From an uncultured Alphaproteobacteria bacterium (GTDB lineage: Bacteria; Pseudomonadota; Alphaproteobacteria; HIMB59; GCA-002718135), in assembly GCA_902592345.1 (NCBI GenBank), contig CACJEE010000004.1:1-64000 (forward strand): 64,000 bases of DNA, written 5' to 3'. This document shows positions 45,987-53,915 of the stretch, piece by piece. Position 1 is the stretch's first letter; each line of letters opens with the position of its first letter. The position numbers and the translations under genes are program-made. The notes beneath the pieces were generated by a model, which worked only from the letters and a program-made list of their open reading frames with translations, was not told the DNA's origin and did not search any database.

Positions 45987-46911
45987 TTTCAGACTCCTTT
46001 ACTAAATTTAAAAAAATTGATTCAAGTGAACTTTGTTCTGTACTAATATCTTTTAGTTGTATCCCTAAATTCTTAATCTCTGATAGTAACGATGTTATGC
46101 CTGTATTTTTACCCTTAGTATCATATATATAAGTTAATGAATTCTTCTCTTGATTTAATTCTAAATTAAAATTTTTAAGATCTGTTGGTATTTCTTTTAT
46201 CGAATTAACTAATTCAATTTTTAAAATTTTTTGACCTAATTTTTTAATCAAATTCTCTTTTTCATCTACAAGAATTATTTTACCATTGTTTATAATTCCG
46301 ACTCTATCAGCAATTTCTTCTGCTTCTTCAATGTAATGTGTTGTTAATATAATGGTAACACCATTCTTTTTTAAACGTTTAACAACTTCCCACATATCTT
46401 TTCTTAATTCTACATCCACAGAAGCTGTTGGCTCATCCAAAAAAAGTATTTTTGGTTCATGAGACAATGCTTTTGCAATTAAAACTCTTCTCTTCATTCC
46501 TCCTGATAATTCTCGTAATTTATTATCTTTCTTCTCCCATAATGAGAGTTCTTTTAATAATTTTTCGATATACTCATGATTAGATGGTTTGCCATAAAGA
46601 CCTCTTGAATAATTAACATTATTCCAAACTGTTTCAAAAGCCTCTAAATTTAATTCTTGAGGAACTATACCAATTAATGATCTTGCCTCACGGTATTGTT
46701 TTTTAATATCAAAATTATTAACTGTAATATCACCATTATCAAAATTTAAAATACCACAGATTGTATTAATTAATGTTGATTTACCTGCACCATTTGGTCC
46801 TAATAAAGCAAATATCTCACCTTCATTAATACTTAAGGTTAAATTATCTAATGCTTGAAACTTATTTTTATATATTTTTGATACTTTTGATATTTGTAAA
46901 ATTTCAGACAT
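45967..46911 (-). CDS. ABC-2 type exporter ATP-binding protein (YadG-like)
   Basis: A 314-residue ATPase for the adjacent permease. Walker A GPNGAGKSTL, signature LSGGMKRRVLIAKAL and Walker B ILFLDEPTASVD are complete. The C-terminal 80 residues form the usual extra domain of this family. It is the first gene of an operon ATPase-permease-PhyH. The 122-base upstream gap contains only AT-rich sequence in which I see no clear signal. Confidence 0.92.
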   Translation of the reverse strand: MSEILQISKVSKIYKNKFQALDNLTLSINEGEIFALLGPNGAGKSTLINTICGILNFDNGDITVNNFDIKKQYREARSLIGIVPQELNLEAFETVWNNVNYSRGLYGKPSNHEYIEKLLKELSLWEKKDNKLRELSGGMKRRVLIAKALSHEPKILFLDEPTASVDVELRKDMWEVVKRLKKNGVTIILTTHYIEEAEEIADRVGIINNGKIILVDEKENLIKKLGQKILKIELVNSIKEIPTDLKNFNLELNQEKNSLTYIYDTKGKNTGITSLLSEIKNLGIQLKDISTEQSSLESIFLNLVKESENELDRG

Positions 46912-47033
46912 TTTATAATATAGTTATCAGATTAGGATTATTTTTTTTAAAATTAAAAAAGAATATTTTTTGAAAACTGTTAATCTTATTTATCATATTT
47001 TTTACATAAATGCACAAAATTAAGAAAAATTAT

Positions 47034-47402
47034 CTAATTAAAATTTTGATTATCTTTTTTTAATAAATGTTTGTTTTTATAAAATAAAAGTAATGCAAAA
47101 AATTCATATATCAAATAACCTATATGGTAAATTACAGGTAATTTGGCAAAATTAGATAATAATTTATATTTTGGCATCTCTTCCCAAACTATTAGAAAAG
47201 CATCTAATCCTTTATATAATTTTTTATTTTTAATAATATGTAATCTTCTTATAAGATCTTTTGATGATAGTTTTGTTTCATTTAATGCATCTTTATTATT
47301 AATCACATCTACCCAATCAATGCTGTTATTAATTTTTTTATAGTGATTAATTTCAGCACGACATATGCTACAAGATTCATTAAAATATCCCTTAATAGTC
47401 AT
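47034..47402 (-). CDS. DCC (DUF393) family thiol-disulfide oxidoreductase-like protein
   Basis: A 122-residue small protein with a glutaredoxin-like core. The family motif DGxCxxC appears as NESCSIC, so both cysteines remain but the Asp is replaced by Asn. The C-terminal IGYLIYEFFALLLFY is hydrophobic and may associate with membranes. Function unknown. It is last in a minus-strand series that begins with the class IV aminotransferase, 14 bases after the hydratase-like gene. Confidence 0.78.
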   Translation of the reverse strand: MTIKGYFNESCSICRAEINHYKKINNSIDWVDVINNKDALNETKLSSKDLIRRLHIIKNKKLYKGLDAFLIVWEEMPKYKLLSNFAKLPVIYHIGYLIYEFFALLLFYKNKHLLKKDNQNFN

Positions 47403-47416
47403 AATTATTATCTAGT

Positions 47417-48214
47417 TTAATTATATAGAAATTCAATTTTACCTATTTTACCAAAATCTGCACTTACTTCGGTCTCAGCAACTAGTTCATGAGCTTTTGT
47501 GCATGTTCCAGTTGAAATAAATTGCCCTTTTAATAGTGTTTCTCCTTTTTTTGAAATCTTATTTATAAGCCACAAAGCTGAGTTTAGTGGATTGCCCATT
47601 ACATTTTTTGTATTACCTTCACCAATAATTTTTTTATTATATGATATATTAATAGAATGATCTTCAAAATTAATTTTATTTAATTTAAATACTTCCGAAT
47701 TCCTTATCCAAAATTCTGATGCACCATTAGTGGCTATTAAATTTAAAGCACCAATTTCTTTTAATGACTTATTAAATCTAAAGTCAACAATCTCTAATGA
47801 ACAAACAAATCCATCAAATAAATCATCAATATTATTAATTGAGAACGGAGCTTTTGATATATCTATATCTTCTTTGACTCTTAATGCAATTTCAGGTTCT
47901 ATAAATGGTTTGCTAAATTTTTTAGATGATAATTTTGTTGGTTCAATTGAATAAAATCTAGAAAATAAGTTTCCATAGAATGGTTCATTAATATCAAGTT
48001 GTTTTTGTGCATCTAAACTAGTACATCCTACTTTTTTTCCTATAGAAATATTTTCTTTAAGATTAAAATATAGTAGTTTTAATTCTTCTTGAATTAAATA
48101 AGCTTCATTTTTTGTTTTAGGTGTTATATGTTTTGGTAAATTATTAATATTTGATTTGTTAAGTCTATGTTCAAATAAAAATTTAGCTGCTTCTTGTATG
48201 TGAATATTTAGCAT
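47417..48214 (-). CDS. 2-keto-4-pentenoate hydratase (MhpD/FAH-like) family protein
   Basis: A 265-residue protein of the FAH/MhpD fold. Members hydrate or decarboxylate 2-oxo acids with a divalent metal. Visible segments are GKKVGCTSLDAQ, FIEPEIALRV (metal Glu pair), SLEIVDFRF and GNPLNSALWLINK. The substrate is not known. The start codon overlaps the stop of the sulfotransferase-like gene by one base, so production is coupled with that gene. Confidence 0.8.
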   Translation of the reverse strand: MLNIHIQEAAKFLFEHRLNKSNINNLPKHITPKTKNEAYLIQEELKLLYFNLKENISIGKKVGCTSLDAQKQLDINEPFYGNLFSRFYSIEPTKLSSKKFSKPFIEPEIALRVKEDIDISKAPFSINNIDDLFDGFVCSLEIVDFRFNKSLKEIGALNLIATNGASEFWIRNSEVFKLNKINFEDHSINISYNKKIIGEGNTKNVMGNPLNSALWLINKISKKGETLLKGQFISTGTCTKAHELVAETEVSADFGKIGKIEFLYN

Positions 48215-48924
48215 TAAATTGAGTATTGATTCATTTCATTATAATATTTCAGAGACTCCTCATATATTTTCTTATATTTTTTTGGAACATTAATTTTTTC
48301 TTTTCTGTACTTCGAAAAAGTATTCGATAATTCAACATTTTTATACCAAACTTTTGACCATATTCCATCAGAAGATCTTTTGCCCTTAGGCCAAGATAGC
48401 ATTTTTTTTGAAAATCTTATTTTTAATTCTCTACACAATTTTTTTATTGTTTTATTTGGATTTATCAAAATATTATCAGCATTAATAACAATAAAATTTA
48501 AATTATTTTTTTTAACTTTATTAAATATTTTAAATTGTTTTTTAAAACCTATGTCATCAATATTGCGCAGTGAATTTTTTTTAATATATGAATTTATTAC
48601 TTTTGCAGGGTGTCTTATAAGAAAACAGTTATATCCTTTTGTTATCCAATCTAAATTTGTATTTTTTATAATATGTTGGGTCATGTGCTTTTGATAGAAA
48701 ATTTTATTATTTCCTGGCTTTGATGTTATTAATTTTATAATTTTGTTTTGTGAGACAGAATAATGATTAATAATTTCTTTTTTCATTGGATGATTTAAGC
48801 GAGTTTTTTTAAGATAATAAGCATAAAAAGGTTCATCTAGAACATATGTATCCTTCCTATTTTCAAAAGATCTCATTAAAGCAGTACTAAGATTGCGAGG
48901 TCCAGACCACATAAAAATAATCAT
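48214..48924 (-). CDS. Sulfotransferase-like P-loop protein
   Basis: A 236-residue protein. The N-terminus MWSGPRNLSTALMRSF is a P-loop-like PAPS-binding segment of the sulfotransferase fold, followed by VLDEPFYAYYL. The later FLIRHPAKVINSY segment corresponds to the 3'-phosphate-binding strand. Whether it transfers sulfate or serves another nucleotide-binding role is not known. It overlaps the class IV aminotransferase and the hydratase-like genes by one base each. As I recall, plant BCAT-like proteins fuse a domain of this type to an aminotransferase IV domain. Confidence 0.78.
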   Translation of the reverse strand: MIIFMWSGPRNLSTALMRSFENRKDTYVLDEPFYAYYLKKTRLNHPMKKEIINHYSVSQNKIIKLITSKPGNNKIFYQKHMTQHIIKNTNLDWITKGYNCFLIRHPAKVINSYIKKNSLRNIDDIGFKKQFKIFNKVKKNNLNFIVINADNILINPNKTIKKLCRELKIRFSKKMLSWPKGKRSSDGIWSKVWYKNVELSNTFSKYRKEKINVPKKYKKIYEESLKYYNEMNQYSI

Positions 48925-49820
48925 TATCTTTCCATTAATTCTAAATATAAATTTCTTAATTTAATGGTTATTTGATTATTTCTTATATTAAATTTTGTAC
49001 TATTGATTTTTTTTACTGGGATTATATTAGCAAATGTACCAGTGACAAAAGCTTCATCTGCTTTTAGCACATCTTTAAGTTTAAAATTTCTTTGGTAAAC
49101 TTTAATTTTATTTTTTTTACATAAGTCTATAACTTTTTGTCTAGTAATACCTTTGACGCAATATTTTCCTGTAGAAGTGTAGACACAATTATTTTTAACA
49201 TAGAAAAAATGAGTACTATTATTTGTTGCAATATTTCCATTTATATCAAACATAAGAGCTTCATCTGCTTTTTGTTTTTTTGCTTCAATACAAGCTATTA
49301 TACAATTGAGTTTGCTTAATGAATTTATTCTTGGATCTTGAACATTATGTGGCCCTCTAATAGTTTTGACTGTTTTCAAAACTAAACCTTTCCTGTAAAT
49401 ATTATCCTGAGGTTGTTTGTACTCAGGTATAACAATTATGGTTGGTTTTGAAATTGTGAATGCTGGATCTTGATAAGGAGTACTTTTAATTCCTCTAGAT
49501 ACAACAAGCCTTAAGTGCACATCTGTTTTCATTTTATTTATATTAATTGTATCATGTAATATTTTTGAAATTTGTTTTTTTGATAAATGAATTTTCAAAC
49601 TAATTTTTTTAGCATCATCATACAATCTATCTAAATGATCTTTTAAGAATAAAAATTTATTATTATGAAATCGTATACCCGACCAGATTCCATCACCAAG
49701 AATCACACTAGAGTCAAAAACAGATACTTTTGCTTTATCTCTTGAATAAAATTTATTGTTAATAAATATTTTTATTTTCTTATTTCTTTTATCTTTAATG
49801 TAATCATGACTTGATGGCAT
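48924..49820 (-). CDS. Class IV aminotransferase (BCAT/D-amino-acid transaminase-like)
   Basis: A 298-residue PLP fold type IV enzyme. VFDSSVILGDGIWSGIRFHN and HLDRLYDDAKKI are the typical N-terminal features, the probable PLP lysine is in INSLSKLNCI, and TGTFANIIPV is the C-terminal cofactor site. Candidates are branched-chain or D-amino-acid transaminases or a specialised relative. It is the first gene of a four-gene operon with one-base overlaps to the sulfotransferase-like gene. The substrate is unknown. Confidence 0.86.
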   Translation of the reverse strand: MPSSHDYIKDKRNKKIKIFINNKFYSRDKAKVSVFDSSVILGDGIWSGIRFHNNKFLFLKDHLDRLYDDAKKISLKIHLSKKQISKILHDTININKMKTDVHLRLVVSRGIKSTPYQDPAFTISKPTIIVIPEYKQPQDNIYRKGLVLKTVKTIRGPHNVQDPRINSLSKLNCIIACIEAKKQKADEALMFDINGNIATNNSTHFFYVKNNCVYTSTGKYCVKGITRQKVIDLCKKNKIKVYQRNFKLKDVLKADEAFVTGTFANIIPVKKINSTKFNIRNNQITIKLRNLYLELMER

Positions 49821-49840
49821 AAATGTACTAATAATAAAAT

Positions 49841-49862
49841 AAAGGGTAGAAATCTACCCTTT
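49841..49862 (-). terminator. Hairpin terminator after metY
   Basis: AAAGGGTAGA and TCTACCCTTT form a perfect ten-pair stem around a two-base centre (49841-49862). On the minus strand it is followed by ATTTTATTATT, a broken U tract. It lies 35 bases past the metY stop and separates metY from the aminotransferase operon. Confidence 0.75.
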
Positions 49863-49896
49863 ATTCATAAGAACGATATATTACAATACAAGGACT

Positions 49897-51892: not shown

Positions 51893-53062
51893 ATGTTAAA
51901 TAAAAATTTATTTATTTTATCTGTTGGTCAGATATTTTCTTTTACATCACCTGTTGTTAGCGTTTTGTTAAGTGGAATTATAGGATCTGCCATGACAGAT
52001 ATTAATTATTTAGCAACTCTTCCAACTGCGTTAATGATAGTAGGTACTGCATTTGGCTCATTAATTGCTTCTAAAATAATGAAAATGAAGGGTAGGAAAT
52101 TTGGTTTTTCTCTAGCTTCCATAATAAATAGTTTATTTTCTTTATTCTGTGCTTATGCAATTTTAATTAATAGCTTTGAATTATTTTGTTTAGGAAATTT
52201 AATTATTGGTCTTTCTGTTGCTTTTGCTCAGCAATATCGTTTTGCAGCTAGTGAATCTGTAGAAAAATCAAATATACCTAAGGCTATATCTTTAATACTT
52301 CTGTTAGGCATAGTAGCTTCATTACTAGGTGCTAACATTGTCTCAGTCACCAAAGATTTTCATCAGACAACATATGTAGGTTCTTATATCTCAATGTCTC
52401 TTCTAACTATTATCCCATTTTTCTTTTTTATATTTTATAAAAATGAAGAAAAGATTGAATCAAAAATAATAAAATCACAAAAATCAATATTTGAATTATT
52501 ATCGAATAAAAATATACAATTATCAATTTTAAGTGCTGGAATAGGGTATACTACAATGAGTACTTTAATGACGGCTACACCTATTTCAATGAATATGATG
52601 CATGGTTTTAGTCTTTTTTCTACAGGAATAGTTCTTCAAATACATGTCGTAGGAATGTTCTTACCATCCTTAATAACTGGAGACTTAATAAAAATTTTTG
52701 GACATAAAAAAATGATTTATTCTGGTATAATTATATTATTAATCACTATTATAATTCATTTTAATTTTGAAACCTATTATGGCTACATGATAGGTTTATT
52801 ATTGCTTGGTATAGGTTGGAATTTTTTATTTGTATCAGGAACAAGTCTTTTAGTTGTATCTTATAATAAAGAGGACAAATTTTTAGCTCAAGGAATTAAT
52901 GATTTCGTTGTTTTTTCATCACAAGCTTTAGGTTCTTTATCTGCTGGTATAATATTATTTTCTACAAGTTGGCAGACTCTTAATTTAATATGTTTACCGT
53001 TGTTAATTATTCTTTTATTATTTTCTTTATTTAATAAAAACAAATTAAAAAATGAGCAATAA
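51893..53062 (+). CDS. Major facilitator superfamily transporter
   Basis: A 389-residue membrane protein with about twelve helices. The loop MKMKGRKFGFSLAS between helices 2 and 3 is the MFS A-motif region, and GHKKMIYSGIIILL its second-half counterpart. Substrate unknown. It follows the Lrp-type gene and overlaps the reductase gene by eleven bases, so export or uptake of that enzyme's substrate is possible. Confidence 0.88.
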   Translation: MLNKNLFILSVGQIFSFTSPVVSVLLSGIIGSAMTDINYLATLPTALMIVGTAFGSLIASKIMKMKGRKFGFSLASIINSLFSLFCAYAILINSFELFCLGNLIIGLSVAFAQQYRFAASESVEKSNIPKAISLILLLGIVASLLGANIVSVTKDFHQTTYVGSYISMSLLTIIPFFFFIFYKNEEKIESKIIKSQKSIFELLSNKNIQLSILSAGIGYTTMSTLMTATPISMNMMHGFSLFSTGIVLQIHVVGMFLPSLITGDLIKIFGHKKMIYSGIIILLITIIIHFNFETYYGYMIGLLLLGIGWNFLFVSGTSLLVVSYNKEDKFLAQGINDFVVFSSQALGSLSAGIILFSTSWQTLNLICLPLLIILLLFSLFNKNKLKNEQ

Positions 53063-53915
53063 AAAAGTAGGTTTTATAGGTGCTGGTTATATGGGTTATG
53101 GTATGGCTAAAAACCTTATCAAAGATTTTGATGTATATGTAATTGCTCATAAAAATAGAAAACCAATTGATAAGCTTATAAAAGATGGTGCAACAGAAGT
53201 TTTTACTTATGAAGAATTATTAAATCTAAATCTGGATTGTTTAATGATGTGCGTAACCAATACACCTATTGCTATTAATATTGCTGAAGAATTAGTCTCT
53301 TTCATTAGTAATGAATTACATATCATTGATTTAACAACGCATAATAAAAATGGTACAACAAAAATGAAAAATATTTTTAATTCTCCAAATATTAAATACA
53401 CAGTTAACCCAGTAATGGGAGGCCCAGTTCAAAGTGAAGAAGGTGTACTTGGTGGTATTTGGGGTGGAGATATTAAAGACTTTGATAATTCAAAAATTTT
53501 TCTTCAATCATTTTGTAAAGATGTTTTTAATTTTGGTTCAGCTGAGAAAGCTGCACAGGCAAAATTATTATCTAATTTTTTATCTTTACTAACTACAACA
53601 ACTGTAATTGAGTTTTTTAGATCTGCGAAAATGCTTGATATAGATATTAATCTTTTATGCGATGTAGCTAAGTTAGGTTCTGGTAATTCAGGTGCTTTAA
53701 ATAGAATTGCTGATAAAGCTCTTGAAGGAAATTATAAAGGTTATGTATTTTCAGTAAATAATACTCTTAAGGACTTAACTTATATTAATGAATTAATGCA
53801 AGACTCAAATAATGCAGAACAATTATCAAAATTAGCGATGAATTTTTATCAATCTGCTAAAGATAAAGGAATGGGAGACCTGCTTGTTAGTGAACTTATT
53901 CAAAAAGAATACTAA
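53052..53915 (+). CDS. Beta-hydroxyacid dehydrogenase (HIBADH/GlxR-like)
   Basis: A 287-residue NAD(P)-dependent enzyme. The Rossmann start is GFIGAGYMGYGMAKNL, the substrate-binding segment is VNPVMGGPVQSEEG, and the catalytic lysine lies in AAQAKLLSNFLS. The family includes 3-hydroxyisobutyrate dehydrogenase and tartronate semialdehyde reductase. The substrate is not assigned. It overlaps the MFS gene by eleven bases. Confidence 0.87.
   Translation: MSNKKVGFIGAGYMGYGMAKNLIKDFDVYVIAHKNRKPIDKLIKDGATEVFTYEELLNLNLDCLMMCVTNTPIAINIAEELVSFISNELHIIDLTTHNKNGTTKMKNIFNSPNIKYTVNPVMGGPVQSEEGVLGGIWGGDIKDFDNSKIFLQSFCKDVFNFGSAEKAAQAKLLSNFLSLLTTTTVIEFFRSAKMLDIDINLLCDVAKLGSGNSGALNRIADKALEGNYKGYVFSVNNTLKDLTYINELMQDSNNAEQLSKLAMNFYQSAKDKGMGDLLVSELIQKEY

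Follow-up and report, generated by a model that had tools for sequence, protein, structure and literature searches.

A protein with the class IV aminotransferase fold that lacks the PLP lysine, and its conserved Sulfotransfer_5 partner in diverse bacteria

Why should a gene for an aminotransferase-like protein lie directly next to one for a sulfotransferase-like protein, and what could the two products do together? This question is raised by a locus in a 64,000-nucleotide stretch of DNA (hereafter, the window) whose host is a member of a genome-reduced marine alphaproteobacterial order. An earlier note on this DNA described four minus-strand genes in series, the first three joined by one-base overlaps, and the ORF coordinates bear this out. 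The genes encode a class IV aminotransferase-fold protein (AT; 48924-49820, 298 aa), a Sulfotransfer_5 protein with a PAPS-sulfotransferase fold (ST; 48214-48924, 236 aa), a protein resembling the 2-keto-4-pentenoate hydratase/FAH superfamily (HYD; 47417-48214, 265 aa), and a DCC1-like thiol-disulfide oxidoreductase (DCC; 47034-47402, 122 aa). The overlaps (TAATG) are AGATAATGATT for AT/ST and TTTAATGCTA for ST/HYD, and 14 bp separate the stop codon of HYD from the start codon of DCC. Because an intrinsic terminator on the minus strand (49837-49866; 13-pair stem with a T-rich tail) lies in the gap between the upstream O-acetylhomoserine sulfhydrylase gene and AT, the unit starts at AT; one such terminator was found against 0.4 expected. 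The gene block is more than a chance arrangement, since it is syntenic in 29 same-genus loci and since the adjacency of AT and ST recurs across phyla. Locus L111, from the single-cell genome AG-414-A22, is nearly a copy of the window locus, with an ST that is 97% identical, and of the other families sampled the nearest is represented by a Pelagibacteraceae genome.

The co-occurrence of AT and ST was examined by bit score: an ST was regarded as strong at 175 bits or more, which left out weak second PF19798 paralogues. Of the 398 Pseudomonadota genomes compared, 40 had a strong ST; each of these carried AT too (at least 420 bits), and AT without a strong ST was found in 5 of the 358 others. In Verrucomicrobia, 4 of 195 genomes possessed ST; the same four had the matching AT, always adjacent, and none of the other 191 had it. 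These ATs scored 399-574 bits, and the next best match scored 245 bits. These results support the proposal of the earlier note that AT and ST are a conserved functional pair. A loss of adjacency in related genomes, which would have spoken against that note, was not observed: in the 110 fetched loci with both genes, a set that was phylogenetically unthinned (the tree, genome and clade tests used thinned or evenly drawn sets), the genes were always on the same strand and lay within 300 bp of each other in all but one case (109/110). Loci with the pair occur in seven or more bacterial phyla. AT precedes ST in Pseudomonadota, Marinimicrobia and Gemmatimonadota, with one reversed exception (L102), and ST precedes AT in Verrucomicrobia, Planctomycetes, Chloroflexi and Actinomycetota, which means that the adjacency has been kept or re-formed through rearrangement. 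The evolutionary distances of AT and ST also co-vary (Mantel r 0.61 versus a permutation maximum of 0.13). However, AT and ST are encoded at separate loci in several Rhodobacteraceae, and these unlinked copies, together with the five genomes that carry AT without a strong ST, imply that neither linkage nor complex formation is required.

The neighborhoods of the pair loci revealed no third gene family conserved with the pair across phyla; msrA, argG and malic-enzyme genes, considered as such a third gene, were rejected as Rhodobacteraceae background only. No bacterial AT-ST fusion protein was seen at the loci compared, and long overlapping frames in high-GC loci that we considered as fusions were unrelated reading frames. 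A search for viral copies gave 99 pattern matches, none of which was a relative, and plasmids yielded one distant sulfotransferase and nothing else. Several genomes (G127:C1, G273:C10, G440:C3, G354:C72 and G379:C75) contained another PF19798 paralogue, a distant one scoring 56-80 bits, and AT was nearby in neither of the two such loci fetched (L108 and L109).

The first gene had been taken for a class IV aminotransferase. This assignment holds for the fold and the family, as AT matches Aminotran_4 (PF01063) with an E-value of 2e-42, over the gathering score, but AT scores under every NCBIfam curated aminotransferase cut-off and the catalytic lysine is absent at all 110 pair loci. The loss of this lysine, which the earlier note missed, is the main point of the present study. 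When AT was aligned with branched-chain aminotransferases (BCATs) of known structure, the catalytic Lys of 5mqz (PNIKSLNYLNN) fell on Asn166 of AT (PRINSLSKLNC). At this Schiff-base position, the 110 AT-ST loci have Asn in 93 cases, His in 17 and Lys in none. Asn (N type) is found in Pseudomonadota and Marinimicrobia, with the AT>ST order; His (H type) is found in Verrucomicrobia, Planctomycetes, Chloroflexi and Actinomycetota, and all 17 of these loci have the ST>AT order. As a control, we compared 22 other class IV proteins of these genomes, and all 22 paralogues retain Lys at this position.

Other residues of the active site were either kept or replaced in a type-specific manner. The window AT has Asn166 at the Lys position, Lys170 at the +4 position and Thr199 at the position of the N1-binding Glu (codons AAT, AAA and ACA, respectively). 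At +4, where most BCATs have Tyr, the family has Lys, Arg or Leu. The N1-binding Glu is replaced with Thr or Ser in the N type and kept in the H type, and the N type also lacks the O3'-binding Tyr. The phosphate cup is kept (Arg50, Gly224-Ile225-Thr226 of the GIT motif and Thr262 of the TGT motif), as is Arg104, which would bind the substrate carboxylate; we take the roles of the phosphate cup, the carboxylate Arg and the N1-Glu to be those established for E. coli IlvE. H-type ATs are 59-83% identical across phyla, and such strong conservation speaks against decay. The AF2 model of AT had a pLDDT of 87.5, with the lowest certainty at residues 165-168, the former lysine site. These alignments do not support the view of AT as an ordinary aminotransferase: no member examined has the catalytic lysine, and the normal mechanism appears closed to all of them.

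In phylogenetic analysis with the trait columns removed, the N and H types formed a single lysine-less clade apart from all Lys types (support 100/100), and the grouping of the H type with Lys-type BCATs was rejected (p-AU 2.5e-5). The window AT fell inside the N-type clade with the protein of PDB 7z79, an 'aminotransferase-like protein' of Variovorax paradoxus (support 99/97 and 99 in two trees). This protein, which also has Asn at the Lys position, is the nearest PDB structure to the AT model by Foldseek (TM 0.95). The description of another entry, 9j32, gives it as the N174K mutant form of this protein, with Lys put back at the canonical position; the depositors of 7z79 had thus evidently noticed the same replacement. 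Unlike the window AT, the Variovorax protein belongs to a subclade with Arg at +4, and the proteins closely related to it have no strong ST and are encoded beside amino-acid ABC transporter genes. Neither an open paper on this structure nor a published function was found in the sources searched. IlvE and the archaeal BCATs (5mqz and 5e25) share with AT the fold (TM 0.88), about 36% identity, the phosphate cup and the carboxylate Arg, but they differ in possessing the PLP Lys and the O3'-Tyr, both replaced in AT, and the N1-Glu, replaced in N-type AT only.

ST carries the marks of a PAPS-dependent enzyme. It matches Sulfotransfer_5 (PF19798) with an E-value of 5e-52; our literature search found no open paper on the function of this family. 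The AF2 model (pLDDT 93.6) gave the best Foldseek matches to the CurM ST domain, TPST1/2, the Ols ST domain and heparan 3-O-sulfotransferases, all of which are PAPS enzymes, with moderate TM values of 0.4-0.57, and a profile search retrieved the CurM and Ols ST domains at E-values of about 1e-7. The motifs GPRNxST, DEPxY, KxMxxH and RxPxxxxxS are invariant in 111 of 111 ST sequences. In the same 111 sequences, the PSB loop (G8-P9-R10-N11-x-S13-T14) carries Arg where Lys is more usual, the Arg...Ser pair for the 3'-phosphate (R104 and S112), a region spanned by the CurM ST profile match, is invariant, and so are E31 and H84, candidates for the catalytic base. The invariant motifs thus contain both features by which a sulfotransferase is defined, namely a Lys or Arg in the PSB loop and a Ser in the PB motif (PMC11625862). 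The CurM and olefin-synthase ST domains (4gbm and 4gox) and the tyrosylprotein sulfotransferases share with ST the PAPS-sulfotransferase fold and the Arg...Ser 3'-phosphate site, but ST is shorter, is only about 11-16% identical to them, and has no carrier-protein domain nearby.

PAPS itself should be available to most hosts. APS kinase, which makes PAPS, gave a strong match in 48 of 50 ST genomes; it was not convincingly found in one genome (G092), and in the window's own genome, which is 76% complete, the match was weak only. We considered the absence of PAPS because the order is genome-reduced and rejected it, as most relatives of the window contain a CysC (APS kinase) domain, located in a frame of about 620-640 aa.

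With moderate confidence, we propose that AT and ST constitute a conserved two-protein sulfation module in which AT is a partner that acts without classical transamination on a small carboxylate or amino-acid-like substrate. ST would use PAPS to add a sulfo group to such a metabolite. AT, a repurposed BCAT fold unable to form the usual lysine-PLP Schiff base, would bind this metabolite, before or after its sulfation, in the former PLP and substrate pocket through the phosphate cup and Arg104, and would process or present it. We infer the substrate class from the retained carboxylate Arg and from lone lysine-less ATs, which in four genomes (L221, L224, L225 and L228) have no adjacent ST and lie beside ABC transporter genes of the glutamate or general amino-acid type. 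In the window genus, the HpaH/FAH-like metal enzyme HYD may have been added as a further step. A bolder form of this proposal, which we regard as doubtful, is that AT is a lysine-independent BCAT-fold enzyme which, jointly with a PAPS sulfotransferase dedicated to the task, acts on a small sulfated metabolite, the sulfate or phosphate of which would occupy the PLP phosphate cup. If true, this would mean new chemistry for the class IV fold and a new and widespread sulfur-metabolite pathway in bacteria, and perhaps in plants.

It is possible, though unlikely, that AT is instead a PMP/PLP enzyme that works without a Schiff-base Lys in the manner of ColD, with ST making a sulfate leaving group that AT eliminates or replaces. 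In ColD-type sugar dehydratases, His replaces Lys, and H-type AT has His at the Lys position together with a retained N1-Glu; the phosphate cup and the carboxylate Arg are also retained, and the closest solved relatives of ST, the CurM and Ols ST domains, sulfate a hydroxyl and thereby enable its departure. However, N-type AT has neither the N1-Glu nor the O3' Tyr, and productive PLP/PMP chemistry is less likely in that type. Our literature search gave no open paper to cite for the ColD parallel.

Another explanation to which we attach a low probability is that AT is a non-catalytic pseudoenzyme, serving ST as a scaffold, ligand sensor or allosteric subunit, or acting as a regulator that binds amino acids. 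The key catalytic residue is gone with fold and pocket intact, AT is tightly associated with ST, and the lone copies adjoin amino-acid ABC transporters, all of which would fit such a role. The pocket residues are, however, very strongly conserved, including invariant ones that are unneeded for the fold, and the existence of AT without ST, as well as the unlinked genes of several Rhodobacteraceae, also speaks against it. Finally, it is very improbable that AT remains an aminotransferase in which the aldimine is formed by Lys170, a helical turn further along at the place of the O3'-Tyr. Lys occupies +4 in 79 of 94 N-type sequences, that of the window included, but the remaining N-type sequences have Arg and all H-type sequences have Leu, so that Lys170 cannot be a shared mechanism and is ruled out as a general explanation, and in the Variovorax mutant it was the canonical site, not +4, that was given its Lys back. 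A Lys170 aldimine in part of the AT family is conceivable.

Returning to the proposed sulfation module, the view that HYD and DCC extend its pathway in general was not supported. AT, ST and HYD occur in this order in 29 of 29 loci of the genus, and the association of HYD with the pair is absent outside it. HYD is below the threshold of Pfam FAA_hydrolase (18.8 versus 23.9 bits); it matches the HpaH/MhpD superfamily of NCBIfam clearly (E 4e-25) and NahK (E 1e-15), but falls far short of the HpaH equivalog cut-off (89 versus 351.5 bits), so that it resembles the HpaH/MhpD/NahK hydratase-decarboxylases at the superfamily level, unlike them in its equivalog scores and in its genus-restricted link to the pair. 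DCC matches DCC1-like PF04134 (E 8e-18; 66.2 bits versus a gathering score of 27.8) and has a CxxC motif (CSIC). It is present in 27 of 29 genus loci, usually followed by PsiE and photolyase genes, and probably belongs to a separate DCC-PsiE-photolyase cassette that is not common to the other hosts of the pair. The four genes were therefore rejected as a general pathway unit, because neither HYD nor DCC is conserved with the pair outside the genus. PsiE and photolyase/cryptochrome-like genes follow DCC at L041:6891-8467 and likewise in most genus relatives; both have been lost in the window (46911-47034) and in L048 and L111.

Two further features of the genus loci were observed. Two relatives carry, between ST and HYD, an additional gene of canonical Sulfotransfer_1 type that encodes a YPKSGNT loop and has 4-bp overlaps (L040:8653-9555 and L054:8685-9587), which fits a sulfation-related operon. 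Divergent genes for an MFS transporter and a 3-hydroxyisobutyrate-dehydrogenase-like protein (window 51893-53915) accompany the pair in 29 of 29 genus loci and may share a pathway with it.

The earlier note also likened the pair to plant BCAT-like proteins. We take Arabidopsis At3g05190 and At5g27410 to consist of a P-loop domain fused to a class IV aminotransferase, the same two domains joined, and their domain order would match that of the genes in Verrucomicrobia, Chloroflexi and Planctomycetes, where ST comes first; our literature search found no open paper on them. If these fusions belong to the family, the pair would extend to plants in addition to the seven or more bacterial phyla. Many lysine-less ATs probably go under the name of branched-chain or class IV aminotransferase, and the near-constant sulfotransferase partner provides a direct handle on their role.

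The pair also has other genomic company outside the window genus. In a Pelagibacteraceae genome (L036:5496-11143), ST-AT adjoins a class III aminotransferase gene, and the opposite strand encodes an amino-acid kinase, an ArgC-like protein and a P-loop protein, making up an arginine-biosynthesis-like cluster. In a Marinimicrobia genome (L124:12546-13317), polysaccharide genes surround a small APS-kinase-like ORF and a nucleotidyltransferase-like ORF, both situated some 2 kb downstream from the pair.
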